From: Fimbriimonadaceae bacterium | Lineage (GTDB): Bacteria; Armatimonadota; UBA10988 | Direction: 5' to 3' | Length of the DNA: 64,000 nucleotides | Assembly: GCA_020850355.1 (NCBI GenBank) | Contig: JADZEX010000021.1 | Span: forward strand, 62,001 to 126,000 | Part shown: positions 4,889 to 58,279 of the stretch, one piece after another | Numbering within the stretch: position 1 is the first letter of the stretch | Layout of the letters: every line of letters begins with the position of its first letter | Translations under genes and position numbers: made by a program | The notes under the pieces: generated by a model | Databases searched by the model: none | The model's input: only the letters and a program-made list of their open reading frames with translations | Told to the model about the DNA's origin: nothing

Positions 4889-4904
4889 TGTTTCACGTGA
4901 AACA
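4889..4904. other. parS: parS-like ParB-binding site
   Basis: Perfect 16-base palindrome TGTTTCACGTGAAACA, identical to the consensus bacterial parS recognised by ParB/Spo0J for chromosome segregation. It lies between genes, 102 bases from the next copy. Confidence 0.85.
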
Positions 4905-4990
4905 GCCATCCACCTGCCGCCCCCTGCGAACCCCGCGCCGCGGGGCGTGGCCGGGCCTGCCTGACCCGCCAGCAGCCGTCGCCACCGGCG

Positions 4991-5006
4991 TGTTTCACGT
5001 GAAACA
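4991..5006. other. parS: parS-like ParB-binding site
   Basis: Second perfect TGTTTCACGTGAAACA in the same intergenic region, about 135 bases upstream of the synthase start. Confidence 0.85.
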
Positions 5007-5114
5007 GTGTACCGCCCGCGGCGGCTCCGCCGATCGCACTCCCGCCGGGGCTGGCGCGCCGGCCGCTTGCCAGGAGCGTGGCGCGGGAAGCCACCGCCGG
5101 GGGCGGTCGTCCTG

Positions 5115-5123
5115 TGGTATCAT
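5115..5123 (+). promoter_or_regulatory. Extended -10 promoter candidate for the synthase operon
   Basis: TGG followed by TATCAT (5118-5123) is an extended -10 element matching TATAAT at five of six positions; no good -35 hexamer lies 16-18 bases upstream. Predicted transcription start near 5130 would leave only about 11 bases before ATG 5141, which is one reason to consider the in-frame ATG at 5177. A similar TGTGGTA core occurs before two other operons in this window. Confidence 0.4.
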
Positions 5124-5140
5124 AGGCTGTTTGCAGTGCC

Positions 5141-8100
5141 ATGATAAACCGCCAGTTGGGAGGCATCGCCGGGAGCATGCTCGAAACCTGGGCTTTGGAC
5201 GTGCTCGTCGGTGGCGCGCCTGGGATTGACGACACCGCCGTGGTGATCGCCGCAGGGCGTGCCCAGGCGGTCGGCGTGCTGGACCTGGCCGGCCACACGG
5301 TGGTCAGCGCCACGGCCTGCCTGGCGCGTCTCCGGGCGCAGGCGACCCGCTGGGGCGTCCGGCGGTGTGCCTGGAGCGGGCCGGGGCTGGCGGCGCTGGA
5401 CCTGAGCGGGGCGAGTCTCGTGCTGCTGGCCGGTGACGACCCCGCCGCGCTGCCGGCCGAGCTGGACGCCGCGCGCCGCATCGCCGCGCTGGTGCTGGTC
5501 GAAGCCACCAGCGCCGCCGCCGTGGTGGCCGCTCCCGGCGCGGCGGGCTTCGTGGCCCGCGGCCACGAGTGCGGCGGACTCGGCGGGGACGAGGCCGGGT
5601 TCATCCTCTTGCAGCGCCTGTTGACCCTCACCGAGCAGCCGATCTGGGCCGCCGGGGTGGGGTTGCACAGCGCGGCCGGCGCCGTCGCGGCCGGCGCGCG
5701 CGGGGTTTTGTTGGACCGCCAGGTGGGGCTCTGCCGCGAGAGCGCGCTGCCCGCCGCCGTGCGCGATGTGCTGCTCCGGGCGGACGGTGGTGAGACCACG
5801 GTGCTAGGCGCCGAGCTGGGCTGGCCGGTGCGCTGTTACGACCGGCCGGGCTGGCAGGCGGTGGACGAGCTGCGCCGGCAGGCCGCCGAGTTGGGAGCGG
5901 CTGGCGGCAGTCGGGCCGACTGGCTGCGAGCGGTCGCCGCACGGGTCGGCTGGCGACCCAGCGAGGATCTCTGGCTGCTCGGCCAGGAGGCCGGCCTGGC
6001 GGCGCCGTTGGCGGCCGTGCAACAGACCGTCGGCGGGGTGGTGACGGCCTGCCGCGCCCAGGTCCGCGAGTCGCTGCGACTGGCCCGCGAGCTGCAGCCG
6101 CTGGCGGCCGGCGCGCCGCTGGCGCAGTCCCACGGCACCGAGTTTCCGATTGTCCAGGGGCCGATGACCCGGGTCAGCGACAACGCCGAGTTCGCGGCGG
6201 CCGTGGCGGCCGGCGGGGCGCTGCCGTTCCTGGCGTTGGCCCTGCTGCCAGAGCAGCCAGCGCGTGAGTTGCTGGCGGCCACCAAGGCCGCCGTCGGCGA
6301 GCGCCCCTGGGGCGTTGGCATCCTGGGGTTTGTGCCGCCCGAGCTGCGCGAGGTGCAGTTGGCCGCGGTCCGCGCGGCCGCGCCGCAGGTCGCCCTGATC
6401 GCCGGTGGGCGCCCGACCCAGGCCAAGGAGCTCGAGGCCGCCGGCATTCCGACCTACCTGCACGTCCCCTCGCCGCGGTTGTTGGAGCGGTTCCTGGCCG
6501 ACGGCGCCAGCCGCTTCATCTTCGAAGGGCGCGAGTGCGGCGGCCACATCGGGCCGCGGACGTCGTTCGTGCTGTGGGACCAGGCGGTCACGACACTGCT
6601 CGCGGCGTTGGGCGACCAGCCCGCCGAGCGGCTGCACCTGCTCTTCGCCGGCGGCCTGCACGACGCCCGCTCGGCAGCGGCAGTGGCCGCGCTGGCGGCC
6701 CCGCTGGCCGCGCGCGGGGCCAAGATCGGCGTGCAACTGGGCACTGCGTACCTGTTCACCGCCGAGGCGGTCGCCACGGGTGCGGTCACCGTCGGGTTCC
6801 AGCAAGAGGCCGCGAGCTGCGACCAGACGGCCGTGCTGGAGACCTCGCCGGGCCACGCGATCCGCGGCGCGCCGACGCCGGCGGTCGGCGAGTTCCGGGC
6901 CCGCCGCCGCGAACTCGAGGCGGCCGGCCAGTCGCCGCGCGAGGTCGCGGCCGCGCTGGAACGGCTGAATCTCGGCCGGCTGCGGATCGCCTCGAAAGGG
7001 CTGGTGCGCAATCCGGCCCAGGCATCCGACCCGGCGGCGCCGCGCTATCTGGAGTTGGACGCCGCCGCGCAGCGCCAGCAGGGGCTCTACATGGTCGGCC
7101 AGCTCGCGGCATTGCGTGGCGCGGTGGTCCCCCTGCGGGCGGTCCACCAGGCCATCGCCGCGGCGGGCAGCGTGCTGCCGGCTGAGCCGCCGGCGGTGCC
7201 GGTGGTGGTCGACCCGCGGCGCACCGCCGTCGCGATTGTCGGCATGGCCGCACTGCTGCCGGGCGCCGACGGGGTGCAGCGCTACTGGGAGAACGTCCTG
7301 GCGCGGCACGACGCCGTCACCGAGGTGCCGACCGAACGCTGGGACCCGGCGGTCTTCTTCGATCCCGAGGCGCGCCGTGGTGGGGACCACACCTACTCCA
7401 AGTGGGGTGGTTTCCTCGACCCGCACCCCTTCGATCCGCTGCGCTACGGCATCCCGCCGCGCAGCCTGCCGACCATCGAACCCGTCCACCTGCTGGCGCT
7501 GGAGGTGGTCCGGGCGGCGCTCAGCGACGCCGGCTACGCCGAGCGACCGTTCGCCCGCGAGCGCACGGCGGTCGTGTTCGGGGCTGGCGGGGGGTCCTCC
7601 GACCTCTCCAATGCCTTCGGTTTCCGTGGCATGTTGCGCTACTGGTTGAACCGCCGCCCCGGCCTGCCCGACGCCGACGAGCTGCTGCAGGCGCTCAACG
7701 AGGACCTGCCGCAATGGTGCGAGGACACCTTCCCCGGCGTGCTGATCAACGTGATCGCCGGCCGGGTCGCCAACCGCTTCAACTTCGGCGGAGCCAACTT
7801 CACGGTCGACGCGGCCTGCGCCTCGTCGCTGGCGGCGGTCGACGCGGCCGCCAAAGAGCTGCAGCTCGGGCGCTGCGACGTCGCGATAGCCGGCGGCGCC
7901 GACACGACGCAGGACATTTTCAGCTATCTGCTGTTCAGCAACAGCATGGTCCTGAGCCCCCGCGGGCGCTGCCGGACGTTCGATGAGAGCGCCGACGGGA
8001 TCGCCATCGCCGAGGGTGTGGCGGCGGTCGTGCTGAAGCGGGTCGAGGACGCCGAGCGCGATGGCGACCGGATCTACGCGGTGATCCGCGGGATCGCCGC

Positions 8101-11100
8101 CAGCAGCGACGGGCGGGCGTTGGGGCTGACGGCGCCGAACCTGGACGGGCAGATGCGCGCCGTCGCAGCGGCCTATCAGCGCGCCGAGGTCAGCCCGGCG
8201 ACGGTCGAGCTGGTCGAGGCCCACGGCACCGGGACGGCCGTCGGAGACCGCACCGAGGTCGAGGCCTTGAGCCGGGTCTACGAGGCGGCCGGGGCGGCCG
8301 TCGGGCAGGTGGCGATTGGTTCGGTGAAGTCCAACATCGGGCACACCAAGTGTACCGCGGGGCTGGCCAGTCTGATTAAGACGGCGCGCGCGCTGCACGA
8401 CCAGGTGCTGCCGCCGACGATTCACGTCGAGAAAGTGAACGGCAAGGCCGGATTCGGTCGCAACCCGTTCTACCCAATCCGCGAGGCGCGGCCGTGGCTG
8501 AACCGGATCCACGAACACCCGCGGCGGGCCGGGGTCAGCGCGTTCGGATTCGGTGGGACCAACTTCCACTGTGTGCTGGAAGAGTACCCCGCCAACCTGG
8601 CCCCAGCGCCGCGCTCGCTGCACGCTCGGAGCAGCGAGCTGCTGGTCTGGCAGGCGGCCAGCGTGGCGGCCTTGCGCGAGCAGATCGCGGCGCTGCGCGG
8701 CCACTGCGAGCAGCCCTTGCCGCATCTGCGGCTGCGCGACCTGGCTCGCAGCCTGACGGCCGCGCGGGGCACCGGGCCGGTCCGCCTGGCGTTGGTCGTG
8801 GCGCGGGTGGCCGACCTGCCGCGACAGCTCGACGCCGCGCTGGCCGCGCTTGACGGCCAGCCGCCAGCGGCTGGGGTCTACTACACGCCGCAGCCGCTGC
8901 TGACCGCCGGTGGCCTGGCGTTCCTGGTCCCCGGCCAGGGCTCCCAGCGGGTGCTGATGCTGGCCGAGCTGGCGATCCACTTCCCGACCGTGGCGCGAGT
9001 CCTGGAAGATGCCGACGTGGCGCTGCTGGAGCAGTTCCCGCAGGGCCTGTCGCGGCGGATCTACCCGCCGTCGAGTTACACGCCGGCCGAGCAGGCCGCG
9101 GCCGAGGCGGCGCTGCAGGCGACCAACGTGGCGCAACCCGCGCTCGGGGCCTGCGACACCGCGCTGCTGGCGCTGCTGCGGGAGTTCGGCCTGCAGCCCG
9201 ACATGGTGGCGGGCCACAGCTACGGCGAGTACGTCGCGCTCTACGCCGCCGGCTGCCTGTCGTTCGACGACCTGTTGCGGCTCAGCCAGGCACGGGGCCA
9301 GGCGGTGGTCGACACCGCCGGGCCGGCGGCCGGCGCGATGGCGGCGGTGCTGGCCGACGCGGCCACCACGGCGACCGCGGTGGCCGCGGTCGCGGGCCTC
9401 ACGCTGGCCAACCTGAACAGCCCGTTGCAGACCGTGATCGCTGGTTCGGAGGAGGCCCTGACCGCCGGGCTGGCCGCCTGCGCCGCGGCCGGGCTGAAGG
9501 CGAAGCGCTTGCCTGTGGCGGCCGCCTTCCACACCGCGCTGATGCAACCGGCGGCGGATCGCCTGGCGGCGGCGCTGACGGCCACACCTTTCGCGGCACC
9601 GCGGCTGCCAGTCTACAGCAACACCACGGCGGCGCCCTACGAGGGTGATCCGCGGCCGGCGCTGCGGCAGCACTTGACCTCGCCGGTGCGATTCGTCGAG
9701 CAAATCGAAGCAATCTGGCAAGCCGGCGCGCGAGCCTTCGTCGAGGTCGGCCCGGGCCGGGTGCTGACCGGCCTGGTCGGCCGGATCCTGGACGGCCGGC
9801 CGCACCTCGCCCTGCCCTCCGACGGGTCGCAGGGCGTCGATGCCTGGCACCAGTTGTTGGCCGCCCTCTGGGCGCACGGCGCCGAGCCTCGGCTGGAGCT
9901 GCTCTACGAGGGTCGCGACGCGGCCCTGCTGGACCTGTCCGACCTCGCTGCGGCGAGCGCCCCTGCGGCCTTGCCGCCGAGCACCTGGATGGTCAGCGGT
10001 GGGCGCAGCGTGCCGCTGGTGGCCCCGCCGAAGCCGAGCCCGGTGGCTGCCGCCCCCCGCCCGGCCGCGCCGCCCGCCGCCCCCGTGCCCCCGGCGCCGC
10101 TGGCTGCGCCGGCGGCGGCGCGATCGGCCCTGCTGCCGCTCAGTATGGCGGCCAGCGGCGACCCGGTGCTGGACCAGGTGCAGGCCGCGATGCGGCAGGC
10201 CTTGGAGCAGCAGCAACGCTTTGTCCAGGAGACCTTGGCGCAGCAGCAGCGGCTGCTGGAGGAGTACCTGCAGGCGCAGCAGGCGGTCCTGACGGCCTAC
10301 CTCGGCGGCCAGCCGGTGGCCCCCCCGCCCACCGTCGATGGCGCGGCGGCGATGCCGGCTGCGGTCCCGGCGCCGGCCGCGGCCGCGGCGGAGGAGCCAC
10401 CGGCGGTCGCCGCCGAGGCCCCGGCGGCGAGTGGGCCGTTGGACCTGACGGCGACCCTGCTGCGACTGGTGGCCGACCGCACCGGCTACCCGCCCGAGAT
10501 GCTGGACCTGAACGTCGACCTGGAAGCCGACCTGGGGATCGACTCGATCAAGCGCATCGAGATTCTCGGCGGCTTGCAGGACAGCCTGCCGGGCGAGGTG
10601 GCGGTGCGCATCGAGAGTGGTCTGGAAGACCTCGCGCAGCAGAAGACGCTGGCCCAGGTGATCGCCTGGATGGAAGCCCAGATGGCGACGCCGGCCGACC
10701 CGCCAGTGCCGCCGCCCGCGCCGGCCGCCGTGCCGGACGAGGCGGCCCGCGCCGCCGCCGCGGCGGTCTGCCGCCACGTGCTGCGGGCGGTGCCGACCCC
10801 CTTGAGGGGGACGCCGCGTGAGTTGACCGAGGGTCAGGTGGTCCTGTTGGCCGGCGAGCCGCAATGCCGCGAGGCGTTGGCCGAGCGGCTGCTGGCGGCC
10901 CGGCAGGTGCCGCGCCTGGTGACCTTGCCGGCCGACCGCGAGGAGGCCCAGGCGGCCCTCGCCAGCGCCCGTACGGCGGGCCCGGTGGGTGGTCTGGCGT
11001 GGCTCAGCGACCCGCAGGACGAACCCACGGCCGCGACGGTGCGGGGGCTCTTCTTGTTGGCCCAGGCGGCTGCCGCGGACCTCAGCAGCGCGGCGCACGA

Positions 11101-12238
11101 CGGCTTTGGTCTGCTGGCGGCGACGGCGATGGGCGGTGACAACGGCCTGACGGCGGCGGCGCGGCCCGGCGATGGGGCCGTCGGCGGGTTGGTCAAGGCG
11201 TTGGCCAAAGAGCTGCCGGCGGTGGTGGTGAAAGTGGTCGACCTGCCGCCAGGCGAGCCGCGCGAGCTGGCCGCGGCGCTGTGGCAGGAGCAACTGGCCG
11301 GCGATCCGCTGGTCGAGGTCGGCCTGGGGCCGGTCCGGACGGCGGTACACTGCGTGCCGCTGCCGGCCGACGGCGCGGGGCTGACCCTGGCGGCGCCGCA
11401 GGTGGTTCTGTTGACCGGCGGCGCGCGCGGGATCACCGCCGAGGTGGCGGACGGCCTGGCGGCGCGCGGCGTGACGGTGGTGCTGGTCGGCCGCACCCCG
11501 CGGCCGACGCCGCTGGAGAGCCCGGCGACGCGGGAGATCAACGACCAGGCGGTGCTGAAGCGGGCGTTGGGCGACCAGCTCCGCGCACAGGGCGAGGCCG
11601 CCGTGCCCGCCAAGATTGAGGCCGCCTACCGCAATCTGCAACGCGAGCGCGAAGTGCGGGCGACCTTGGACCGGCTCCGCGCGAGCGGCGCGACGGTGGC
11701 CTACGAAGCCTGCGACGTGACCAGCGGCGCGGAGTTCGCGGCCTTGCTGGAGCGGGTCCGCGCGACCCACGGCCGGCTCGACGGCGTGATCGCCGGGGCT
11801 GGCGTGATCCACGACAAGCGGCTGGCCGACAAGACTCTCGAGCAGTTCGCGGCGGTCTGGGAAGCCAAGGTGGTCGCGGCTGCGCACCTGCTGGCCGCGC
11901 TCCCGCCCGAGGGGCTGCCGTTCCTCTGCTTCTTCACCTCCGTCGCCGGCCGATTTGGCAATCTCGGTCAGACCGACTACGCCGCGGCCAACGAGTACCT
12001 CAGCAAACTGGCCCGCCGGCTGCAGGGGCAGTGGCCCGGGCGCGTGGTGGCGACGGCCTGGGGCCCGTGGGACGACGTCGGCATGGTGCATCCCGAGCTG
12101 CGCCGGCGGATGCGTGACCGCGGAGTGGTGCTGGTCCCGCCGGACCGCGGCCTGGCGCTGCTGCTCGACGAGTTGACCCACGGCGCGGGCGAGCCCGAGG
12201 TGGTGCTGGCCGCGCTGGGCGCGGGGACCGCATTGTGA
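5141..12238 (+). CDS. Iterative type I polyketide/fatty-acid synthase: ER-like x2, KS, AT, ACP, KR
   Basis: A 2365-residue megasynthase of the PfaA-related type. In order: a first, degenerate nitronate-monooxygenase/FabK-like TIM barrel (about residues 20-225, with GHECGGLGG); a second, complete one (about 335-600, PIVQGPMTRV and GRECGGHIG), the likely FMN enoyl reductase; ketosynthase (from about 693; Cys893, His1028, His1068); acyltransferase (GQGSQ, GHSYG with Ser1360); an Ala/Pro/Gln linker; one acyl carrier domain (GIDSIKRIE, Ser1802); and a ketoreductase (TGGARGI near 2091, Tyr2280). It lacks dehydratase and thioesterase domains; a dehydratase is supplied by the overlapping next gene. 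Inferred product: a reduced long acyl chain. ATG 5141 has no ribosome site; in-frame ATG 5177 is an alternative start. Confidence 0.9.
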   Translation: MINRQLGGIAGSMLETWALDVLVGGAPGIDDTAVVIAAGRAQAVGVLDLAGHTVVSATACLARLRAQATRWGVRRCAWSGPGLAALDLSGASLVLLAGDDPAALPAELDAARRIAALVLVEATSAAAVVAAPGAAGFVARGHECGGLGGDEAGFILLQRLLTLTEQPIWAAGVGLHSAAGAVAAGARGVLLDRQVGLCRESALPAAVRDVLLRADGGETTVLGAELGWPVRCYDRPGWQAVDELRRQAAELGAAGGSRADWLRAVAARVGWRPSEDLWLLGQEAGLAAPLAAVQQTVGGVVTACRAQVRESLRLARELQPLAAGAPLAQSHGTEFPIVQGPMTRVSDNAEFAAAVAAGGALPFLALALLPEQPARELLAATKAAVGERPWGVGILGFVPPELREVQLAAVRAAAPQVALIAGGRPTQAKELEAAGIPTYLHVPSPRLLERFLADGASRFIFEGRECGGHIGPRTSFVLWDQAVTTLLAALGDQPAERLHLLFAGGLHDARSAAAVAALAAPLAARGAKIGVQLGTAYLFTAEAVATGAVTVGFQQEAASCDQTAVLETSPGHAIRGAPTPAVGEFRARRRELEAAGQSPREVAAALERLNLGRLRIASKGLVRNPAQASDPAAPRYLELDAAAQRQQGLYMVGQLAALRGAVVPLRAVHQAIAAAGSVLPAEPPAVPVVVDPRRTAVAIVGMAALLPGADGVQRYWENVLARHDAVTEVPTERWDPAVFFDPEARRGGDHTYSKWGGFLDPHPFDPLRYGIPPRSLPTIEPVHLLALEVVRAALSDAGYAERPFARERTAVVFGAGGGSSDLSNAFGFRGMLRYWLNRRPGLPDADELLQALNEDLPQWCEDTFPGVLINVIAGRVANRFNFGGANFTVDAACASSLAAVDAAAKELQLGRCDVAIAGGADTTQDIFSYLLFSNSMVLSPRGRCRTFDESADGIAIAEGVAAVVLKRVEDAERDGDRIYAVIRGIAASSDGRALGLTAPNLDGQMRAVAAAYQRAEVSPATVELVEAHGTGTAVGDRTEVEALSRVYEAAGAAVGQVAIGSVKSNIGHTKCTAGLASLIKTARALHDQVLPPTIHVEKVNGKAGFGRNPFYPIREARPWLNRIHEHPRRAGVSAFGFGGTNFHCVLEEYPANLAPAPRSLHARSSELLVWQAASVAALREQIAALRGHCEQPLPHLRLRDLARSLTAARGTGPVRLALVVARVADLPRQLDAALAALDGQPPAAGVYYTPQPLLTAGGLAFLVPGQGSQRVLMLAELAIHFPTVARVLEDADVALLEQFPQGLSRRIYPPSSYTPAEQAAAEAALQATNVAQPALGACDTALLALLREFGLQPDMVAGHSYGEYVALYAAGCLSFDDLLRLSQARGQAVVDTAGPAAGAMAAVLADAATTATAVAAVAGLTLANLNSPLQTVIAGSEEALTAGLAACAAAGLKAKRLPVAAAFHTALMQPAADRLAAALTATPFAAPRLPVYSNTTAAPYEGDPRPALRQHLTSPVRFVEQIEAIWQAGARAFVEVGPGRVLTGLVGRILDGRPHLALPSDGSQGVDAWHQLLAALWAHGAEPRLELLYEGRDAALLDLSDLAAASAPAALPPSTWMVSGGRSVPLVAPPKPSPVAAAPRPAAPPAAPVPPAPLAAPAAARSALLPLSMAASGDPVLDQVQAAMRQALEQQQRFVQETLAQQQRLLEEYLQAQQAVLTAYLGGQPVAPPPTVDGAAAMPAAVPAPAAAAAEEPPAVAAEAPAASGPLDLTATLLRLVADRTGYPPEMLDLNVDLEADLGIDSIKRIEILGGLQDSLPGEVAVRIESGLEDLAQQKTLAQVIAWMEAQMATPADPPVPPPAPAAVPDEAARAAAAAVCRHVLRAVPTPLRGTPRELTEGQVVLLAGEPQCREALAERLLAARQVPRLVTLPADREEAQAALASARTAGPVGGLAWLSDPQDEPTAATVRGLFLLAQAAAADLSSAAHDGFGLLAATAMGGDNGLTAAARPGDGAVGGLVKALAKELPAVVVKVVDLPPGEPRELAAALWQEQLAGDPLVEVGLGPVRTAVHCVPLPADGAGLTLAAPQVVLLTGGARGITAEVADGLAARGVTVVLVGRTPRPTPLESPATREINDQAVLKRALGDQLRAQGEAAVPAKIEAAYRNLQREREVRATLDRLRASGATVAYEACDVTSGAEFAALLERVRATHGRLDGVIAGAGVIHDKRLADKTLEQFAAVWEAKVVAAAHLLAALPPEGLPFLCFFTSVAGRFGNLGQTDYAAANEYLSKLARRLQGQWPGRVVATAWGPWDDVGMVHPELRRRMRDRGVVLVPPDRGLALLLDELTHGAGEPEVVLAALGAGTAL

Positions 12239-15200: not shown

Positions 15201-15351
15201 CAGCGGCCTGACCGACCCCCGGGCCTGGCAGGTCGGCCCGCTCGGCGAGACCACCATGGTGGTCTCGCCGGACGGCCAGACCTGGGCCGTGCGGCTGGCC
15301 ACGGCTCAGGGCTACGCGCTGGCCGTGGCGGGCGGCGGCGTGGTCGGTTAG
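12235..15351 (+). CDS. Synthase partner: AT, dehydratase, phosphopantetheinyl transferase
   Basis: A 1038-residue protein whose GTG start overlaps the TGA of the preceding synthase, so both are surely co-translated. Domains: an acyltransferase (GHSLGDW, Ser200; AAHTPLSE supplies the His), whose glutamine motif is GDGSP instead of GQGSQ; a linker; a polyketide-type dehydratase (RDHCLGG with His547, and LLDAMGQ with Asp721 and Gln725); and a C-terminal Sfp-type phosphopantetheinyl transferase (VSIAHSGG, GLDVERI with Asp944 and Glu946, WCAKEAAAKA with Glu982). The transferase would load the carrier domain of the partner. With that partner it provides every step of a reducing cycle. The second acyltransferase may offload, or select a different starter; this is inference. 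Confidence 0.9.
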   Translation: MTSGWPTRLLLLEAPTRAALQQRLAELHRRLPDPAALAAQLPLRPTPGSCRAALVVADQAALGQRLEQALQLLASARPLRVHLPGMHLADPPLAPPARLAVVFPGDGSPYLGMTKDLAAAFPEVRQWYSRADEVAIEFGRPTTTSVVFPGELRGARERQRAEHRLRRLENSGAAVLACNQGLYELLLTFGVRPHALIGHSLGDWSALGASGITKVETFLRSAEQALLLPGHVTNAGARMGFAIATREEVAEAIAEVGGEVYIAMHNSPRRVVLAGAKEPVRRTMTLLAQRGVPTYRLPFVRAAHTPLSEAICAPLREAFATWGGALPDVEIWSCTTAQRYPRDLAEIRRLAVANIVQPVEFAATIERAYASGLRLFIECGAGGQLCDCISDLLGTQPHVAVPLDQRQQHGVTLLQNALAALATEGLAVDLTRFQERLTASAAIHTPARSDAATAAVQRFLDDSAALFAQHQATVQQAVAAGQRATSQFLTAQHALATAWLGQREAAAGASGESRLSGFVDEVCERGPDLVRVRCRLDAARQPYLRDHCLGGFAPPVDGALGPLPVVPLTVSIELMAEAAALLFAGQQLVAVTEVVARRPVAAEEFDEVEMVAERTTATTAQVRLCGLLDVPVVLAEGSFEFGQRATPPADPGWRPSDARPPQLTAPELYQQRIMFHGPCFQGVCGLEAVSAAGIVGRLRSLPREMLLGRPLETVLDPALLDAMGQLFGYWPYEQLAENLVVFPTHLGRLEVYRVPQPGDEVEAQVQVTDLSLKRLTGDISLVRDGQVWLRASGWRFWRFNWPLATVRATRHPERAWSSVTLREACGIDLPGAVLWQPKPLELLAFLIRATFSAREHDRYLALPEANRRREHYFLGRVCAKEAIRRWAGDLDLPPAALTIADQESGPPLVEGPGVALLPERPRVSIAHSGGCIAAVASTVPVGLDVERIVARDESFLDLSFSAAERARLGDPTQVTLAWCAKEAAAKAVGSGLTDPRAWQVGPLGETTMVVSPDGQTWAVRLATAQGYALAVAGGGVVG

Positions 15352-19507: not shown

Positions 19508-19518
19508 CCAGCCGCCAC

Positions 19519-19534
19519 TGTTTCACGTGAAACA
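19519..19534. other. parS: parS-like ParB-binding site
   Basis: Perfect TGTTTCACGTGAAACA, 12 bases after the serine hydrolase stop and 36 bases before the next copy. Confidence 0.85.
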
Positions 19535-19554
19535 GACCACCCGGCCCGGGCCGC

Positions 19555-19570
19555 TGTTTCACGTGAAACA
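19555..19570. other. parS: parS-like ParB-binding site
   Basis: Perfect TGTTTCACGTGAAACA, middle member of a three-site cluster between the serine hydrolase and the GH51 gene. Confidence 0.85.
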
Positions 19571-19624
19571 GGCCGCTGGGCGCGAACCCGATCGGTCGCA
19601 ACGGCCAGCGCCGCGGGAGGTCTG

Positions 19625-19640
19625 AGTTTCACGTGAAACA
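19625..19640. other. parS: Near-perfect parS-like site
   Basis: AGTTTCACGTGAAACA matches the parS consensus at 15 of 16 positions. It sits 20 bases upstream of the preferred GH51 start at 19660; a GTG inside the palindrome could be mistaken for that gene's start. Confidence 0.7.
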
Positions 19641-19659
19641 CTCGGCAGGGAGCAGTGCG

Positions 19660-22255: not shown

Positions 22256-22276
22256 CGGCCTCTCCCGTCGGCGGGG

Positions 22277-22292
22277 TGTTTCACGTGAAACA
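22277..22292. other. parS: parS-like ParB-binding site
   Basis: Perfect TGTTTCACGTGAAACA, 22 bases upstream of the oxidoreductase start and 56 bases from its partner site. Confidence 0.85.
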
Positions 22293-22332
22293 GCCGGACA
22301 CCTGCCAGGTCGACCGACCGGTGGGTGTGACG

Positions 22333-22348
22333 TGTTTCACGTGAAACA
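22333..22348. other. parS: parS-like ParB-binding site
   Basis: Perfect TGTTTCACGTGAAACA directly abutting the hairpin that follows the first MPEYIPII gene. Confidence 0.85.
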
Positions 22349-22353
22349 GAACC

Positions 22354-22386
22354 GGCCGCCCGCACCCCAGCGGAGTGCGGGCGGCC
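22354..22386 (-). terminator. GC hairpin, probable terminator of the 22416 gene
   Basis: A perfect 12-base stem, GGCCGCCCGCAC pairing with GTGCGGGCGGCC, with a nine-base loop. Read leftward it lies 30 bases past the stop of the MPEYIPII gene and is followed by GGTTCTGTTT, a weak T tract that merges into the parS site. Confidence 0.6.
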
Positions 22387-22415
22387 CGGCAGCCGTTGCC
22401 ACGGCTGTGGCGTGG

Positions 22416-23228: not shown

Positions 23229-23313
23229 CGTGACCTCCCCTTGGGCGACGGGCCCTGGCTCCCCAGTGCGGCCGCTCCCAGCACCAACGGCGCGGCCCGA
23301 CCCGTCGGGCGGC

Positions 23314-23329
23314 TGTTTCACGTGAAACA
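23314..23329. other. parS: parS-like ParB-binding site
   Basis: Perfect TGTTTCACGTGAAACA between the two MPEYIPII genes. Confidence 0.85.
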
Positions 23330-23368
23330 GGCCACCACCTGCCACGGCGTGCGGCCAGCGGCGTGACC

Positions 23369-23384
23369 TGTTTCACCTCATACA
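23369..23384. other. Decayed parS-like site
   Basis: TGTTTCACCTCATACA matches the consensus at 13 of 16 positions; the left half-site is intact and the right half is changed. It occupies the same place relative to the hairpin as the perfect site at 22333 in the neighbouring cassette. Confidence 0.5.
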
Positions 23385-23386
23385 GG

Positions 23387-23424: not shown

Positions 23425-23451
23425 CGCTCCGATCGCGTTGCGGCGGGCCGC

Positions 23452-26822: not shown

Positions 26823-26906
26823 AAGCGCGCTCCATTTGCCGTCGCCGCCCTCTGCGCGGGGTGCCGTTGGACACACCAATCTGCTATCCTGCTGCTGGAG
26901 CAGGTT

Positions 26907-49380: not shown

Positions 49381-49407
49381 CAGCGCCGCGGGACAAGGGG
49401 CCGGAAG

Positions 49408-52400
49408 ATGGTGGGCATCATGGCGAACATCATGGCGACGACGCGGCGGCTGGGCTGGCTGGCCCTCTTGGTGGGACTGCTGGCGGCCGGGCCGGCTCCG
49501 GCGTTGACGGTCGTCAACTCCGGTTCCGACACAGCGACGGTGGTCGGTGGGCTGCGGTGGGCGATCACCGAGATCAATGCGGGCAACCAGACCGCGCCGA
49601 TCCTGATTCAGGCTGGTGGTGGCACGACCCTCGCGTCCGGGCTGCCGGCCTTGACTAAGCAGTGCGATGTACTGTTCGACGTGAACTTCACCATCAGCGC
49701 GGCAGGCTACGCTGCACTGAACGGCCAGGTCGGTAGTGTTCGACGCAATGCGGGCGGGACGCTGACAATCAGCAATGCTGCTGGGGCCATCAACTCGACC
49801 GGCTATCAGGGCAGCGTGACCGTCAACAACGTCACCGTCAACGGGGCCACTGGTTCCAACGGCATTGGGTACACCCTGCGAACCACCGACAACTTCACGG
49901 GCGACCTGTTGAACATCGGCGGCGATCGGGGCGGATACGGCCTCAGCGTGACCACGGTCAACAACGTCACCATTTCGAACTCGCAAATCCTGGCGGTGGA
50001 CGGCGAGGGCATTGCCGTGAGCGGTGCCCGCGGCAACGTTCAGATTGGGACCGGCGGGCCGGTGTACATCGGGCTGACAGCCTTGCTGGCGACGGGGGCG
50101 ACAAGCACGGTCGGGAGCAACGGCATCCACGTTGCCGAGACCAGCTTTGGCAGCGTCACGGTGCAGGACACCACGATTGCCAACTGCGGCGGCCACGGCC
50201 TGTGGATCGACCCAGACGGCAACAACTCGACGATCACGATTCAACGAGTGAAGGTGGGCTACCCGGGCACCACCGCCGCGGCCCCGGTGGATCAGGGCTT
50301 CTTCGATGTCGGCGGCGACGGGATCCGGATCCAGGGCGGCTCGGGCGATGTCTTCATCGGCGATACCGGGGACGACACCGGGGGCGACGACCTCGGGGAT
50401 CTCGGCATCACGACCAACTCCTGCAACAGCGCCGGCATCCGGGTGGGCATCTCCGACGACCCCTTCAACGGCGGCGTCACGATCACCGACGTGCGGAGTG
50501 GGCTTGAGGCCAACGGGGTGTACGAAACCGGCGACGGCAACAACAATCGGGCGCGGGTGCAGGATTACGGGCTCGTCACCAACGTCTCGTCGCCGTCGCC
50601 CGGGCGCCCGGTGACCGTCGAGCATAGCCAGTTTACGGGCAACACCGTCGCAGGGTGCAGCTTCAACGGCGGGATGTACCTGCACTTCATGGACAACCTG
50701 GTCGGGGTGATCGCCGATGCCTCGGACGCTCCCGTGCAGCGGTACCTCGGCTACGGCACGCCCCTGGGCAACGGTCTGCGCCAGGGCGGCGCGGACGGCG
50801 ACCACCCCGGTACCGCCTCGGGCGACGGCATTCAGATTGCCATGACCGACGGGCAGATCCGCAGCTTCGTGCGCAACGTCGTCGCCGGCAATGCGCGCCA
50901 CGGGATGCTGATCACGGCCCTCGGCTCCGGTGTGATCGGGGTGCAGGACGCGGGCAACAGCTTCCACCGCAACTGGTTCGGCCTCACCAGCATTGGTGGT
51001 GGGACCAAGCTGCCTTCTTCGGAGGACGCTTCGGGTGCGAGCCTGGCCGACTTCACGCCGGCCTTCCGCGGCAACGGCACGACGCTCTATGGCGGGACCA
51101 CCCCGACCAGCGCCGTTGGCAGTGGCATCGTCTACAACGGCGGCGGTCCGCTACTGATCTGTGATGTGACCATCGGCGACAGCGCCGTCTACGGCTTGGA
51201 CATCAACTCGGCCCAGAACGACACCGATGCCAACGTCTGGTTGCTCGGGGCGATGATCGGCGTCAACGACGCCGGCACCGGGCCTGGTGACCAGACCATC
51301 GGCAACGGCACCGTCGGCCGGTCGCCAACCTGGAATGACCGCACCTTCAACGACGGCGCCGGCATCCGGATCAACGACGACGCGGACCACCTGATCGGTG
51401 ACGGCAGCTTCAAGATCTCTGGTGACGAGGCCGAGCACACGTTGCCGCCCAGCATCGAGTCCGTGATCCCAGCCACCGGCATCGCGGCGCGGGTAGTGGC
51501 GCAGAATCGTTGCGTGATCTCGAGCAATATCAACTACGGGATCCAAGTCGACTCGGGTGTTGGTCGCGGCCTGGTCGTGGGCAACCCGGCCGACGCCTCG
51601 ATCGCCATCTCGAACTGCTACATCGGGGTCGACTCGACGGGTGTCAACAGCGGCACCACCGGCGGCATGGCGCTCGGCTACGGGAACGGCTTCGACCTGG
51701 TCACCGGGTTGATGTCGCCGACCTATCCGAACACCTTTGGCGCGGGCGTGCGGGCCGAGCCGTCGAGCACCGGCAGCCACATGATCGGTGGCGACGACGC
51801 CGACGAGCTGTGCATCATCTCGGCGAACGGCCTGGCTGGCGTCTGGATCGACAGCGGGGCGACCTTCAGCATCGTCGGCAACATCATCGGCCTCGACGTG
51901 ACGGCCTCCGTCGGCCAAAGCACGATGGCCAATGCGCAGGCCTACGGCGTGCTGCTGGAGCAGTTCGCAACGGGGGGTGAGTTCAGCGAGCACCGGCCGC
52001 TGACCGGGGTCAACAGCAGCCCGGTGGCGATGCCGCCGCAGTTCATCGGCAAGCTGCCCTTCGCCACGCTGACCAACGAGAACGGCAACGCTGGCACCGG
52101 CAACGCGGGCTACTACACCAACGTGATCTCCGACAACACCCTCTGGGGGGTGGCGATCGAAGACGACGCCAACCACGTCATCGTGGCCAACGCGATCGGC
52201 ACCAACGGCACCTTCAACGCAGCCATCGGCAACGGCGAGAGCGGGCCGGGGCTGCCGATGGAGTTGTCGGCGATTGTCGCCCCGCAGAGCTTCCTGCGGA
52301 CCGGCGGCATCGAGATCGGCGCCCTCAACCAGTTGGCCCGTGGCCACGTCGTGATCGGCGACGTCGGCACGGCCAACGTCGTCAGCGGCAACACCGGCTA

Positions 52401-55400
52401 CGGCATCGCGCAGTACCGTGACGGCGTGATGGACGTGATCAACGGTTGGGTGGGGGTCGATGTCACCCGGGCGGTCGACGTCGGGAACAGCCTCAGCGGG
52501 ATCCTGCTGTGGGGCAGTGGCGTCAACACGGTGCTGAACGGCGTGGTCTCGGGCAACGGCCTCGACGGCATCAGCATCACCGGCTCCGGCGACAACATCA
52601 TTTACGGCAGCAACGTCGGCACCAACGACGCCGGCGATGCCGCGATCGGCAACGACAACCACGGCATCGGGATCTACAACACGGCGCTGGGCAACAACGT
52701 GATCGGGCGGCCCGAGATTGACCCGACGGTCGGCGTCACGCGGAGCAATGTGATCTCCGGCAACGCTGGCAACGGGGTGACCATCTCGGGGCACGGCAAC
52801 AACGTCCTGAAGGCGAACGTGATTGGGCTCAACGCCGCCGGGACGGCCGCCCTGCCAAACGGCACCGCGGCCGACGCGCTGTCTGGCGACGGCATTCAGA
52901 TCCTGGGCCGCGGCGCGAACGTGGTCGGCGGCTCCAACACGCTGATCGCCAACGGCTGGGGGACCGCTTCCGACGGCAACGTGATCGGCGGCAACCCGCA
53001 GTTCGGCGTCCGGCTGACGGCCAGCTCGTCGCTCAGCAGCGTCGGTGGCGACAACACGGTGCAGGGCAACTTCATCGGCCTCAACCTGGCTGGCACCGGC
53101 GGCCTGGGCAACGGTGCGGGCGGCGTGGCGATTGACGATGCGGGCGGTACCGGGCTGACCGGCGTCGCGCCGCAGGGCCAGAACCAGTTGCTCGGCAACG
53201 CCATCGGCGGCAACACCGGGCCGGGGGTCTACCTTGAGGCGGCCGGGCAGAACACCCTCAGCGGCAACCGCATCGGCACCGACTCCGGCGGCCTCGTGGC
53301 CGTCGCCAACACCGCGGCGGGGATCAACGTTGACAGCAACACCACGGTGCTGCAGGTGGTCGGTCTGGCGAACACCGCCGACACCTCGACCACCCTCGAC
53401 AAAGGCAACTTGATCAGCGGCAACGGCGGTCCGGGGGTGGTGCTCGGGTCGGGCCAGAACCACCTCGTCAAGGGCAACCGGATCGGCACCAACCTGGCGG
53501 CCACGGCGGCCGTCGGCAACGGCGGCGGGGGGATCGTTTCCCTCAACAACGGCGCCACCATCACAGTCGGCGGGCCGCTGACCGGCGAGCCGAACGTGAT
53601 CTCGGGCAACAGCGACTGGGGCCTGCAGATTCTCGGCGACTCGACCCACGACATCGACCACAACTGGATCGGTTTGGCCGGGTCGGGCAACGCCGGCATC
53701 GCCAACAGCAACGGCGGCGTGCTGATCAACGGGGCCGGCGACAACAACCTGTCCGATAACAAGATCTCCGGCAACGGTGGGCCGGGCGTGCAGATCGCCG
53801 ACGGCCAGAACGAGCTCGAGCTGAACCGCATCGGGACCACCGCCGACGGCTCGGCGGCGCTGCCGGGGCAGACCCAGACCCAGGGCATCTATCTGGTCGA
53901 GCCGACCGGCCTGACCCCGAACGCGGTGACCTACATCGGGCAGGCGACCACCGGCAACGTCATCTCGGGCAACACCGCCAACGGCGTGTTGGTGGCGGGG
54001 GCTGGCGACGCCTACCTGATCTCGAACGTGATCGGCGAGAACCTGACCGGCAGCGCCACGGCCGGCAACGGCCAGAACGGTGTGCTGGTGAATGCCACCT
54101 CCACCGGGGTGGTCAGCATCGGCGGGCTCAACGCCAACGAGCAGAACACCATCGGTGGCAACGGGCAGTACGGCCTGCAGCACCTCGGCGGACAGGTGCC
54201 GACGATCGTCGCCAACCGGATCGGCACCAACGCCAACGGCACCTCGGCGATCGGCAACGGCGCCGGCGGGATCTACCTCGGCAGCACCCAGACCGCCGCG
54301 GTGACCATCGGCGGGGCGACCAGCAGCGCGGGCAACCTGATTTCGGGGAACAGCGGCCCGGGCCTGACGCTGGCCGCGACCGCGGCGCATCCGACCAGCG
54401 TGAGCAACAACACCATCGGCACCTCGTTCTCGCGAACCCAGCCGGTCGGCAACGCCGGGCCGGGGATCTGGATCAACAACAGCCAGAACAACACCATCGG
54501 CGGCGCCGGTCTCGGCAACGTGATTTCGGCCAACGAAGATGGGGCGCTGGACGGTGACGGCATCCGGATCACCGGTGACGGCCAGAACAGCATCACCCAC
54601 AACTACCTCGGCGGCGACGGCAACGGCGGCTCGCTGGTGACCACCGAGGGCAACGAGGGTGATGGCATCTTCATCAGCCGCGCGGGCAGCGGCGCCGGGA
54701 ACACGATCACCGACAACGTGATCCGCGACAACGGCGGCGGCATCACGGTGCTGACCGGCGCGCGCGAGTTCTTCAGCGAGAACTACCTGGTCAACAACGG
54801 CTTCACCCCCGGCTCGCCCGGTACCGTCGACAAGCCGCCGATCGACCTCAGCGACGACCACGCGCTGAACGGGACGGCAACGGCCAACAACGGTCTGCCG
54901 GCGCCGGTGCTGCAACGGGTGGTGGCCGGCTCCGGCGGCACGGCGACAGTCAGCGGCACGGTCTCGGCGACCGCCACCACCGTCGAGATCTACCACGCCG
55001 TGGATCCCCTGGCGACCGAGGCCGACAGCGACCTGACCAGCATCATCCACCACGGTGGGGCTGACACGCTGCTGGCCACCGTCACGACCGGCGGCAGCAC
55101 GACCTTCTCGCGGGCGGTGCCCTTCGCGACTGGCGACCTGGTGACGGCGATCTGCCGCGACGCCAACGGCAACACCTCCGAGTTCAGCCGCAACATGGGC
55201 CTGATCGACGCCGCCAGCTCGACGATTGTCGCCGCGCCGACCAGCGTCGTCGCCGACGGCACGCAGAGCAGCACGGTCACGGTGACGACGGCCGACACCA
55301 TCGGCACGCCGTTGGTCGGCCTGACTGACGTGACCCTGGGCTACACCCCGGTGTTCACCGGCCTGGTGCAGGCGACCAGCCCGCTGCCGGCGACGGATAC

Positions 55401-58131
55401 CGCCGGGCAGACCACTGGCACCTTGCGCGCTACGGCGTCGGGCAGCACGACGGTCACGGCGACCAGCGGCGGGCAGACCGTCAGCGGGCCAGCTGGGATC
55501 ACGACGGTCGTCTTCACACCCGCGGCGCTCGACATCACCAGGTCGACCTTCGTGGCCAGCGCGACGCAGGTCCGCTCGAATGGCGCCGCGCTGGTGACCT
55601 TCACCTTCACCATCCGCGACACCAACGGCAATCCGATCTCGGGTGTCCAGCCGAGCGTGCTGTACGTCGAAGCCACCCCGAGCACGGGCGTCAACGTGGT
55701 GCAGCCGGCGGCGGCGACCGACGCGAATGGCCAGACCACGGCGACAGCCACCGGGACGGTCGAACAGAACGTCGTCTTCCGCGGCCTCAGCGGCGGGGTC
55801 GGCGGGGCCGAGATCCCGAGTCCGCGGACCGTCAGCTTCGTCGCCGTGCCGCTCAGCGGCAGCAACAGCACGCTGTCGGTGAGTGGCAGCCCGGTGGCGG
55901 CCGAGACCATCGTCAACCCGCCGAACCCGACCCCGAGCGCGGCGGCGACCCTGACGCTGACGCTGATCAACGAGGACGGTGCGCCGGTGGTCGGCGTGCT
56001 GCCCAGCGAGGTGGTCTGGGGTACGGGCGGCGGCACCAACGTCGTCGTCACCAACCAGACGACCCCCAGCGACAACGCCGGCCGCTTCCAGGCGACTGTG
56101 CGCAGCGACACGATCCAGCAGGTGACTCTCTCGGCGACGGTGCGCGGGGTGCCGCTGACCGCCACCGGATCGGTGATCTTCACGGCTGGGGCGCCGGCCT
56201 CGGGCAACAGCACGATGAACGTCGCGCCGACCACCGCGCCGGCCGATGATGTCGCCGCCGTCGGCGTCACCTTCAACATCCGTGACGGGCTCAACAACCC
56301 GGTCGCCGACCAGCCCGTCGTGCTGAGCGTCACCCCGAGCACCGGGGTGACCATCACGCAGCCCGCCAACACCGACGTCAGCGGGCAGACCAGCGCCTCG
56401 TTCCGCAGCACGCAGGCCGGCGATGTGCAGGTCACGGCGACCGTCGGGGCGGCGCCTGGGCAGTTCACGCTCGGGCCAACGACCGTCGCCATGACCGCCA
56501 ACCCGCCCGACCCGGCGCGCAGCTCGGTGGCGGTGGCACCGACCGCGATTGTCGCCGACGGGGTCGAGAACGCGACCGTCACGATCACCTTGATCGACGC
56601 CTACCAGCGGCCGATCGCGGGGGTCAGGCCGGCCGAGATCACCGTCGCCACGACGCCGACGGCGGGCGTGACGATCACCCAGCCGACGGCCGACACCAAT
56701 GCCCAGGGCCAGACGACCGCGCAGATCCGCGGCACCACGCCGTCGACGGTGACGGTGGTGGTGACAGCGCGCGGCATCGTGATCAACCCGGCGGCGCAGC
56801 CGACGCTGACACTGCGGGGCTACGTCGATCAGACCTTCACCATCGGCACGCACCTGATCGCCGTGCCGGCGCAGCCGATCAACCCGAGCCCGGCGGCGGT
56901 CTTCGCGGCGTTGCTGCCGAATCTGCGCCTGGCGACCTGGCAGCCCGCCACGGAGGACTACCTGCAATACGTCGCAGGCAGCTCGCAGCCGAGCGTGGTG
57001 CCTGGGCGCGGGCTCTGGCTGCAGACGGCGCAGGCGCTCAATGTGCGCGTCGTCGGCCAGGCCACCCCCGACGGGCCGTTCGACCTCAACCTCTCACAGG
57101 GTTGGAACCAGCTCGGCAACCCGTACACCGGACCGGTTGCCTTCCGGCTTGACCAGATCCAGGTCTACCAGAGCGGCAACCTGATCGGACCGCTGAGCAG
57201 CACTGCCGGCCGGGCGAAGGTCGAGGCGTACTGCTGGATCTGGGACAGTGTGCTGGGCTACCTGCTGGTGGTCGACCCGGCCACCGCCGGCGCCGCCAAC
57301 GTGCCGGGCACCATCCCGCAGAACCGCGGGTTCTGGATGCTCTCGCACGGCAACGACATCACCCTGCGCCTGACCGGCCCGACCCGCGCGGCGGCGGCCT
57401 CGCGGTCGCGGGCGGCGTCGCCCAGCGAGTGGCTGATGTCGCTGACCGCGGCGGCGGCCGGGTCGACGGCCCAGGCCAACCTGTTCGGCGTCTCGTCGAG
57501 CCGCCTGGCGGCCGAGCTGCCGCCGGTCGGGCCGACCCTGCCGAAGGTCGCGCTGAGCTTCGTCGATCCGGCTGGGCGAGCCGTGGCCGCCGACGTGCGC
57601 GGCGGCCCGCTGACCCGGGCCACGCGCTGGACCGCCCAGGTCACCGCGCCCCAGGGCAGCGAGGTCACGCTGAGCTGGCCGGGGGTCAACCGCGGTCTGC
57701 CGGCGGGGCACAAGCTCTGGTTGCTCGACCCGACCAGCGGCAAGCGCGTCTCGATGAACTCGCGGTCGTCGTACAGCTTCCAGCAGGCGGCCGCCACGCG
57801 GACGATGCAGGTTGAGGTCGACCCGCGCGGCGAGCGGGCGCTGGCGGTGACCTCGCTGGCAGCCCGGCCCGGCGCCGGCCGCAGCCGCAGCGTGCCGATC
57901 GAGTACTCGCTGACCACCGTGGCCGAGGTCAAGGTCCTGATCAAGGGCCTCCGCGGCAGCGTGGTGCGCACCCTGACCGCCAGTGGCAACGTCGGTGCCA
58001 ACACGGTGGCCTGGGACCGCCTGGACAACCAGGGCCGCCGGGTGCCGGCGGGGGTCTACCAGGTCGAACTGACCGCCACCAGCGCCGACGGTGAAGTCGC
58101 CCGTGTCGTCCGCACCGTGACGGTCGACTAG
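49408..58131 (+). CDS. Giant exported beta-helix / Ig-like protein 2 (paralogue)
   Basis: About 2907 residues, built like the preceding gene: signal (LGWLALLVGLLAAGPAPA), then roughly 1850 residues of beta-helix repeats (NVISGNAGNGVTISG), five Ig-like domains (about residues 1930-2470, first at STIVAAPTSVVADG), the shared module with QGWNQLGNP near 2565, an Ser/Arg-rich segment, and a FlgD-like end (DNQGRRVPAGVYQVEL). The helix part is longer and differs in sequence from protein 1, while the C-terminal 450 residues align throughout. Start is uncertain among ATG 49408, 49420 and 49432. It follows protein 1 by 27 bases. An arginine/serine-rich segment (SRSRAASPSEW) near residue 2670 is a likely linker. 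Confidence 0.85.
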   Translation: MVGIMANIMATTRRLGWLALLVGLLAAGPAPALTVVNSGSDTATVVGGLRWAITEINAGNQTAPILIQAGGGTTLASGLPALTKQCDVLFDVNFTISAAGYAALNGQVGSVRRNAGGTLTISNAAGAINSTGYQGSVTVNNVTVNGATGSNGIGYTLRTTDNFTGDLLNIGGDRGGYGLSVTTVNNVTISNSQILAVDGEGIAVSGARGNVQIGTGGPVYIGLTALLATGATSTVGSNGIHVAETSFGSVTVQDTTIANCGGHGLWIDPDGNNSTITIQRVKVGYPGTTAAAPVDQGFFDVGGDGIRIQGGSGDVFIGDTGDDTGGDDLGDLGITTNSCNSAGIRVGISDDPFNGGVTITDVRSGLEANGVYETGDGNNNRARVQDYGLVTNVSSPSPGRPVTVEHSQFTGNTVAGCSFNGGMYLHFMDNLVGVIADASDAPVQRYLGYGTPLGNGLRQGGADGDHPGTASGDGIQIAMTDGQIRSFVRNVVAGNARHGMLITALGSGVIGVQDAGNSFHRNWFGLTSIGGGTKLPSSEDASGASLADFTPAFRGNGTTLYGGTTPTSAVGSGIVYNGGGPLLICDVTIGDSAVYGLDINSAQNDTDANVWLLGAMIGVNDAGTGPGDQTIGNGTVGRSPTWNDRTFNDGAGIRINDDADHLIGDGSFKISGDEAEHTLPPSIESVIPATGIAARVVAQNRCVISSNINYGIQVDSGVGRGLVVGNPADASIAISNCYIGVDSTGVNSGTTGGMALGYGNGFDLVTGLMSPTYPNTFGAGVRAEPSSTGSHMIGGDDADELCIISANGLAGVWIDSGATFSIVGNIIGLDVTASVGQSTMANAQAYGVLLEQFATGGEFSEHRPLTGVNSSPVAMPPQFIGKLPFATLTNENGNAGTGNAGYYTNVISDNTLWGVAIEDDANHVIVANAIGTNGTFNAAIGNGESGPGLPMELSAIVAPQSFLRTGGIEIGALNQLARGHVVIGDVGTANVVSGNTGYGIAQYRDGVMDVINGWVGVDVTRAVDVGNSLSGILLWGSGVNTVLNGVVSGNGLDGISITGSGDNIIYGSNVGTNDAGDAAIGNDNHGIGIYNTALGNNVIGRPEIDPTVGVTRSNVISGNAGNGVTISGHGNNVLKANVIGLNAAGTAALPNGTAADALSGDGIQILGRGANVVGGSNTLIANGWGTASDGNVIGGNPQFGVRLTASSSLSSVGGDNTVQGNFIGLNLAGTGGLGNGAGGVAIDDAGGTGLTGVAPQGQNQLLGNAIGGNTGPGVYLEAAGQNTLSGNRIGTDSGGLVAVANTAAGINVDSNTTVLQVVGLANTADTSTTLDKGNLISGNGGPGVVLGSGQNHLVKGNRIGTNLAATAAVGNGGGGIVSLNNGATITVGGPLTGEPNVISGNSDWGLQILGDSTHDIDHNWIGLAGSGNAGIANSNGGVLINGAGDNNLSDNKISGNGGPGVQIADGQNELELNRIGTTADGSAALPGQTQTQGIYLVEPTGLTPNAVTYIGQATTGNVISGNTANGVLVAGAGDAYLISNVIGENLTGSATAGNGQNGVLVNATSTGVVSIGGLNANEQNTIGGNGQYGLQHLGGQVPTIVANRIGTNANGTSAIGNGAGGIYLGSTQTAAVTIGGATSSAGNLISGNSGPGLTLAATAAHPTSVSNNTIGTSFSRTQPVGNAGPGIWINNSQNNTIGGAGLGNVISANEDGALDGDGIRITGDGQNSITHNYLGGDGNGGSLVTTEGNEGDGIFISRAGSGAGNTITDNVIRDNGGGITVLTGAREFFSENYLVNNGFTPGSPGTVDKPPIDLSDDHALNGTATANNGLPAPVLQRVVAGSGGTATVSGTVSATATTVEIYHAVDPLATEADSDLTSIIHHGGADTLLATVTTGGSTTFSRAVPFATGDLVTAICRDANGNTSEFSRNMGLIDAASSTIVAAPTSVVADGTQSSTVTVTTADTIGTPLVGLTDVTLGYTPVFTGLVQATSPLPATDTAGQTTGTLRATASGSTTVTATSGGQTVSGPAGITTVVFTPAALDITRSTFVASATQVRSNGAALVTFTFTIRDTNGNPISGVQPSVLYVEATPSTGVNVVQPAAATDANGQTTATATGTVEQNVVFRGLSGGVGGAEIPSPRTVSFVAVPLSGSNSTLSVSGSPVAAETIVNPPNPTPSAAATLTLTLINEDGAPVVGVLPSEVVWGTGGGTNVVVTNQTTPSDNAGRFQATVRSDTIQQVTLSATVRGVPLTATGSVIFTAGAPASGNSTMNVAPTTAPADDVAAVGVTFNIRDGLNNPVADQPVVLSVTPSTGVTITQPANTDVSGQTSASFRSTQAGDVQVTATVGAAPGQFTLGPTTVAMTANPPDPARSSVAVAPTAIVADGVENATVTITLIDAYQRPIAGVRPAEITVATTPTAGVTITQPTADTNAQGQTTAQIRGTTPSTVTVVVTARGIVINPAAQPTLTLRGYVDQTFTIGTHLIAVPAQPINPSPAAVFAALLPNLRLATWQPATEDYLQYVAGSSQPSVVPGRGLWLQTAQALNVRVVGQATPDGPFDLNLSQGWNQLGNPYTGPVAFRLDQIQVYQSGNLIGPLSSTAGRAKVEAYCWIWDSVLGYLLVVDPATAGAANVPGTIPQNRGFWMLSHGNDITLRLTGPTRAAAASRSRAASPSEWLMSLTAAAAGSTAQANLFGVSSSRLAAELPPVGPTLPKVALSFVDPAGRAVAADVRGGPLTRATRWTAQVTAPQGSEVTLSWPGVNRGLPAGHKLWLLDPTSGKRVSMNSRSSYSFQQAAATRTMQVEVDPRGERALAVTSLAARPGAGRSRSVPIEYSLTTVAEVKVLIKGLRGSVVRTLTASGNVGANTVAWDRLDNQGRRVPAGVYQVELTATSADGEVARVVRTVTVD

Positions 58132-58156
58132 GCGGCGGGTGCCTGAGCGAATCGGC

Positions 58157-58182
58157 GACCGGCGGGCAACAGCCCGCCGGTC
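58157..58182 (+). terminator. GC hairpin after giant protein 2
   Basis: Perfect 11-base stem, GACCGGCGGGC and GCCCGCCGGTC, around AACA, 25 bases past the stop; followed by GTGCTTTGGG, a weak T tract. It ends the rightward giant-protein transcript. Confidence 0.65.
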
Positions 58183-58206
58183 GTGCTTTGGGTGGTCGCT
58201 CCGCGC

Positions 58207-58222
58207 TGTTTCACGTGAAACA
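58207..58222. other. parS: parS-like ParB-binding site
   Basis: Perfect TGTTTCACGTGAAACA between convergent genes, 57 bases from the next copy. Confidence 0.85.
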
Positions 58223-58263
58223 GGGGCCGGAGGCAGGCCGTGGGCAGCGGTCGGCGCGCTGGC

Positions 58264-58279
58264 TGTTTCACGTGAAACA
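58264..58279. other. parS: parS-like ParB-binding site
   Basis: Perfect TGTTTCACGTGAAACA; with 58207 it forms a doublet whose spacing nearly equals those at 22277/22333 and 23314/23369. Confidence 0.85.

Follow-up and report, generated by a model that had tools for sequence, protein, structure and literature searches.

The palindromes repeated along the 64,000-nucleotide stretch of DNA analysed here (the window, G000:C22:62001-126000) are very probably parS, the sites at which ParB is loaded in the ParABS centromere of the chromosome itself. A single parS site or a few are usual in bacteria. The assembly from which the window is taken (G000; 6,671,784 bases in 117 contigs, 95% complete) has 156 exact copies of the 14-bp core GTTTCACGTGAAAC. 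The palindromes match the parS consensus, they are concentrated on the contigs with the origin genes, parAB lies near these genes, the ParB is of the parS type and SMC is present. What is most interesting is the scale of the parS expansion and its recurrence in distant lineages.

Palindromes in the window

Nine exact 16-base palindromes and one 15/16 copy at 19625 had been reported for the window by a sequence-only reading, and all ten were confirmed at these positions (Table 1). No further site was seen in the window at up to two mismatches, and the same palindromes occurred 0 times in 100 dinucleotide-preserving shuffles of it. The exact 14-bp core is present in all ten, including the 15/16 copy. 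The reading had also placed every palindrome between genes, which holds for 10/10 according to gene calls that were made, here and throughout, with a simple codon model written for this analysis. Overlapping longer open reading frames do occur at sites, such as a 782-aa frame spanning 4889-5006; its Pfam domains sit further in, within the shorter called gene 3451-4629.

Table 1 Positions of the parS palindromes, counted from the first base of the window
Element	Position	Strand	Match	Gap between genes
parS	4889..4904	.	16/16	divergent, GT2 gene (3451-4629 -) / PKS gene (5177-12238 +)
parS	4991..5006	.	16/16	divergent, same GT2/PKS gap as 4889..4904
parS	19519..19534	.	16/16	tandem, 19508-19659
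parS	19555..19570	.	16/16	tandem, 19508-19659
parS	19625..19640	.	15/16 (exact 14-bp core)	tandem, 19508-19659
parS	22277..22292	.	16/16	tandem, 22256-22415
parS	22333..22348	.	16/16	tandem, 22256-22415
parS	23314..23329	.	16/16	tandem, 23229-23451
parS	58207..58222	.	16/16	convergent, 58132-58338
parS	58264..58279	.	16/16	convergent, 58132-58338

The genes of the window include a two-gene iterative PKS/PUFA-synthase-like locus (5177-15351), in which an NMO-KS-AT-ACP-KR protein is followed by an AT-dehydratase-phosphopantetheinyl transferase protein, and an adenylate cyclase domain fused to an AAA domain and TPR repeats (24225-27299). A type II/III secretion secretin with a GspD-like N0 domain (31155-33782) suggests a diderm cell. 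Two neighbouring giant proteins of 2616 and 2907 aa (41530-58131), with beta-helix, Big_1, invasin D3 and C-terminal FlgD-like Ig domains, are probably surface or secreted proteins.

Number and distribution of sites in the genome

The 156 exact cores were counted in a scan of the whole assembly, for which composition alone predicts 0.002 copies and in which the reversed control pattern had none. Of these, 147 could be located, 142 in sequence tiles and 5 from the genome listing. Five contigs, picked after the counts were known and together 728 kb long (10.9% of the assembly), account for 132 of the 156 sites: C96, the contig with parAB, has 55 sites in 178 kb, C46, which carries dnaA, has 40 in 92 kb, C22, the contig of the window, has 22 in 206 kb, C59 has 7 in 38 kb and C19 has 8 in 213 kb. 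This corresponds to 0.18 sites per kb, compared to 0.004 per kb (24 in 5.94 Mb) in the rest of the assembly, which is about 45 times sparser. An equal density throughout the genome had been named as an argument against parS; the density is far from equal and highest on the dnaA contig C46 and the parAB contig C96.

The sites on C22 number 6, 3, 1, 3, 6, 0, 2, 1, 0, 0 and 0 per 20 kb from its left end. From this uneven thinning we read the window as the outer flank of a denser origin region. The impression of a dense and unusual set in the window was right in that the set is real and unusual, but it understated the matter, since the window belongs to the sparser flank. For only 53% of its bases is there a site at 5 kb or less, and a continuous ParB coat is therefore not expected there.

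Partition genes and the origin

The genes yidC-jag-TIGR00266-parA-parB follow each other in this order at C96:955-5727, with parAB at C96:3869-5727 and two sites, at 3908 and 3988, in the parAB region. dnaA is found at the very start of C46 (C46:552-1880); the DnaA model had one further, weak hit at G000:C82:977-1276, which at 25.7 bits is below the cut-off. In three of four other genomes of the phylum that were checked for dnaA, dnaA and parB share a contig, at distances of about 29 kb (G122), 16 kb (G314) and 52 kb (G125); in the fourth, G001, they are on two contigs. Judged by this proximity in relatives and by known gene order, C96 and C46 would flank oriC with their left ends; the two are separate contigs with oriC outside the assembly, and C22, C59 and C19 have no placement relative to it. 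GC skew gave no signal as a marker of replication direction. A comparison of a set of contig ends revealed 127 bp common to the right ends of C46 and C59, and joining the two contigs by this overlap was rejected because a match in the same direction marks a repeat. The left end of C46 and the right end of C52 have a 60-mer in common, at or within one base of the ends, another repeat that the assembly leaves unresolved beside the dnaA contig.

A search with the parB family model retrieved one gene from G000, and the ParB itself as query retrieved the same gene, in an assembly whose 95% completeness means that another ParB may be missing. A parB gene, the absence of which would have spoken against parS in the sequence-only reading, is present, and with the sites concentrated on the dnaA and parAB contigs the proposal of a centromere region is supported. 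The other proposal of that reading, a separate replicon, found no support. If the window and the other site-rich contigs belonged to a chromid or megaplasmid that has a partition system of its own, this would explain why dense sites are confined to a limited set of contigs; yet the search for parB led to a single gene, on the contig with yidC and jag, dnaA stands at the start of the contig with the most sites per kb, and the tetranucleotide composition of C96 correlates with that of the other site-rich contigs at r 0.998-0.999 (0.999 for C22). Of all the alternatives that we considered, this one is the least probable.

The best structure matches of the ParB are the chromosomal ParB/Spo0J proteins 1vz0, 6t1f and 6sdk. 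It has the motifs GERRWRA (the CTP motif) and ENLQR and, by our reading of the alignment, arginine and glycine at the equivalents of R173 and G201 of Caulobacter ParB, two residues called absolutely conserved in ParB orthologs (PMC7383237). An unusual ParB as the cause of the expansion was rejected, since the motifs are ordinary in an alignment of the proteins from G000, G122, G456 and G660.

Nucleoid occlusion is another conceivable role: a protein like Noc, or some other regulator of the ParB family, could use the sites chromosome-wide to block division. Noc/NBS is indeed a DNA-binding family homologous to ParB, the G000 protein matches the NCBIfam nucleoid_noc model (235.6 bits, under the cut-off of 315), and its position 184 is lysine as in Noc; this position varies among ParBs according to PMC7383237. 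However, Noc/NBS differs in its site, in residues 173 and 201 and in its genome-wide distribution (PMC7383237). The palindrome here is exactly parS, the single ParB-family gene found in this 95% complete genome has the parS-type Arg173/Gly201 instead of the Gln173/Arg201 of the Noc/NBS type, and the sites crowd on few contigs, those with dnaA and parAB among them. A Noc-like role is very unlikely.

Anatomy of the clusters

On C96, C46, C22 and C59 the sites are grouped in clusters of 1-6. There are 37 clusters on C96 and C46 together, with a median spacing of 5.9 kb on C96 and 4.5 kb on C46. Neighbouring sites closer than 120 bp to each other number 72 over all tiles, and for 53 of these the distance is 42-70 bp. 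Site spacing showed no significant helical phasing (Rayleigh test against jittered spacings, p 0.056). In the first 140 kb of C96 the coefficient of variation of cluster spacing is 0.52, compared to 0.86 for random gaps, a value reached in 0.4% of simulations, and C46 has a like but non-significant trend (p 0.065). These figures hint at a cluster spacing more even than chance.

Although 91-94% of the sequence of these four contigs was called coding, 120 of 124 sites are intergenic, and 113 of these fall wholly into a gap of at least 14 bp between two called genes. Convergent gaps are clearly preferred: 18 of 31 contain a site, as against 29 of 176 other gaps (gaps of at least 14 bp, four contigs; Fisher p 3e-6). 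By site, 49 of the 113 are in convergent gaps, where 18 are expected from gap length, and 22 in divergent gaps, where 49 are expected.

What the sites have in common is an 18-bp palindrome, most often CTGTTTCACGTGAAACAG, beyond which the similarity ends (142 sites). When the 18-bp core was masked, the 51 clusters on the four contigs gave 6 cross matches, random windows 11. One of the six is a 91-bp flank (92% identity) of two clusters on C46 and two reflect the array end common to C46 and C59; internal tandem duplication was found in 8 of the 51 clusters. These duplications, the two stretches of common flank (91 bp within C46, 127 bp at the array ends of C46 and C59) and the strong preference for convergent gaps are what one would see with a repetitive or mobile element of the REP/MITE kind, or a terminator hairpin, that happens to contain parS. 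Such an element should have common sequence beyond the core, and apart from the two exceptions just named there is almost none past 18 bp; it follows that copying of a mobile repeat did not produce the clusters. Terminators would not be expected to concentrate so strongly on few contigs, and counts over the flanks reveal no conserved T-tract. We consider this origin of the sites highly improbable.

Other genomes rich in parS

Exact cores, whose counts are lower bounds on parS because relatives use variants, number 0-13 in each of 291 genomes of the phylum (G000 included), except for G000 and for G122 (89), which belongs to another family. In 396 genomes of the phylum of Streptomyces they number at most 33, except for G456 (114), G585 (110) and G660 (135), the last of which we take to be the type strain of Eggerthella lenta. 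Altogether, five of the 687 genomes surveyed have at least 89 exact cores, and the next highest count is 33. G001, of the same family as G000, has 0 exact cores, which is partly an artefact of the pattern, as GTTGCACGTGCAAC and GTTGCACGTGAAAC adjoin its parAB. A relaxed pattern found 2 sites on its parAB and dnaA contigs (61.8 kb), compared to 35 in G000 when the first 33 kb of C96 and the first 33 kb of C46 are taken together; the expansion is not seen in these two contigs of G001.

parA and parB homologues are present in G122, G456 and G660, and SMC in these three and in G585, for which the evidence consists of the core count and SMC only. With SMC of G000 itself (G000:C19:102292-105831, 902 bits), all five hyper-parS genomes have the protein, and loss of SMC as the reason why many sites are tolerated was rejected. 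The four other genomes resemble G000 in their 89-135 exact cores, and the stretches read from G660 and G456 also in gene-gap placement: 89 of 98 sites are outside called genes, and 15 of 36 convergent gaps contain a site compared to 42 of 209 others (p 0.009). G660 and G456 differ from G000 in having many of their sites elsewhere than near the origin, with 57 of 135 (G660) and 41 of 114 (G456) falling within the origin stretches read; an origin-only rule is thus not general. In G456, many of the 114 sites are scattered along the chromosome, and eight site pairs are 34-36 bp apart among the 100 sites listed. G122 has parS arrays on C17, C29, C56, C82, C100, C89 and C103 and differs from G000 in that some of them, on C17, C56 and C100, step by exactly 58 bp. 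Several of its contigs end inside arrays, and its 89 sites may therefore be an undercount.

The sites may be real parS and their excess nevertheless neutral, arisen by slippage and chance and tolerated near the origin without any function in a ParB coat. This explanation agrees with ours on the identity of the sites, so that the likelihoods we attach to the two overlap. Some arrays are indeed plain tandem duplications. Moreover, Caulobacter tolerates an extra parS cluster best at distances of up to about 500 kb from the native cluster (PMC5815017), and such tolerance alone would yield an origin-centred pattern. On the other hand, the 18-bp core is kept while nearly all its surroundings differ, and cores with one mismatch are few, 5 against 55 exact ones on C96, 2 against 22 on C22, 1 against 40 on C46 and 0 on C59. 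The even spacing of clusters on C96 and the recurrence in other genomes also argue against a neutral excess, which we regard as unlikely but as the most serious of the alternatives.

Discussion

In its components the system described here resembles known ParABS systems. With Bacillus subtilis and Caulobacter crescentus it has in common the palindrome, a ParB family with a CTP motif and, presumably, an origin-near SMC loading zone. The difference is in number: 10 parS sites are given for B. subtilis (PMC7022226) and at least 5 within about 5 kb for Caulobacter (PMC5815017), compared to 37 clusters on C96 and C46 alone. Streptomyces comes closer, with the exact parS core, many sites near oriC and ParA, ParB and SMC; in our survey, 25 exact cores were counted in Streptomyces sp. 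BR123 (L067/G077). For 20 closed Streptomyces genomes, 11-65 sites defined by a consensus matrix, with a mean of 22.8, are given (PMC8743542), as against 156 exact cores in G000. Other published numbers are 20-23 sites for S. coelicolor and L. innocua (PMC7333895), 22 for Myxococcus xanthus (PMC3899335) and a general range of one to 20 (PMC10197239). In the literature searched, with most subscription papers outside its reach, we found neither a chromosome with more than 65 parS sites nor a parS count for Eggerthella.

How might such a centromere have come about and how might it work? In the lineage of G000 the usual one or few parS sites beside parAB have probably grown in number to about 156. 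Their clusters of 1-6 follow each other every 4.5-5.9 kb (medians) beside the origin genes and become sparser with distance, over several hundred kb. Once loaded at parS, ParB closes with CTP and then slides. Every cluster would then load ParB-CTP clamps that slide a few kb, and the coats of neighbouring clusters would merge to a nearly continuous ParB domain of about 230 kb (the first 140 kb of C96 plus C46). This domain could serve as a large cargo for ParA and as a spread-out loading zone for SMC. Clusters would sit between gene ends because interference between clamps and transcription might be least there; the bias towards convergent gaps fits clamps being kept clear of promoters and of polymerase during elongation, or the other way round.

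Whether the coats would merge depends on how far ParB reaches. Within 5 kb of a site are 93% of the bases in the first 140 kb of C96 and 95% of those of C46, so that neighbouring coats would join if ParB reached about 5 kb. If it reached 2.5 kb, coverage would be only 65% and 71%, respectively. Reported values begin at about 2 kb, for Caulobacter ParB in E. coli, and extend to about 10 kb, for B. subtilis (PMC5815017). A continuous functional ParB coat is, on these figures, a possibility that we raise with some reserve.

It is tempting to go one step further and to speculate that selection built tens of near-regular (4.5-6 kb) parS clusters into a regional centromere with a near-unbroken coat of about 230 kb, and that similar expansions arose independently in at least two phyla, namely in G000 and in Coriobacteriia such as E. 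lenta. We offer this tentatively, and it may well turn out otherwise. If true, it would parallel, in bacteria, the change that eukaryotes made from point centromeres to regional ones, and ParB would be the chromatin of an origin domain rather than a local mark. The hyper-parS genomes, with 89-156 exact sites and an intact SMC, are natural experiments by which the question why parS number varies becomes testable, and the type strain of E. lenta, if it is G660 as we assume, would let binding, folding and segregation be measured directly.
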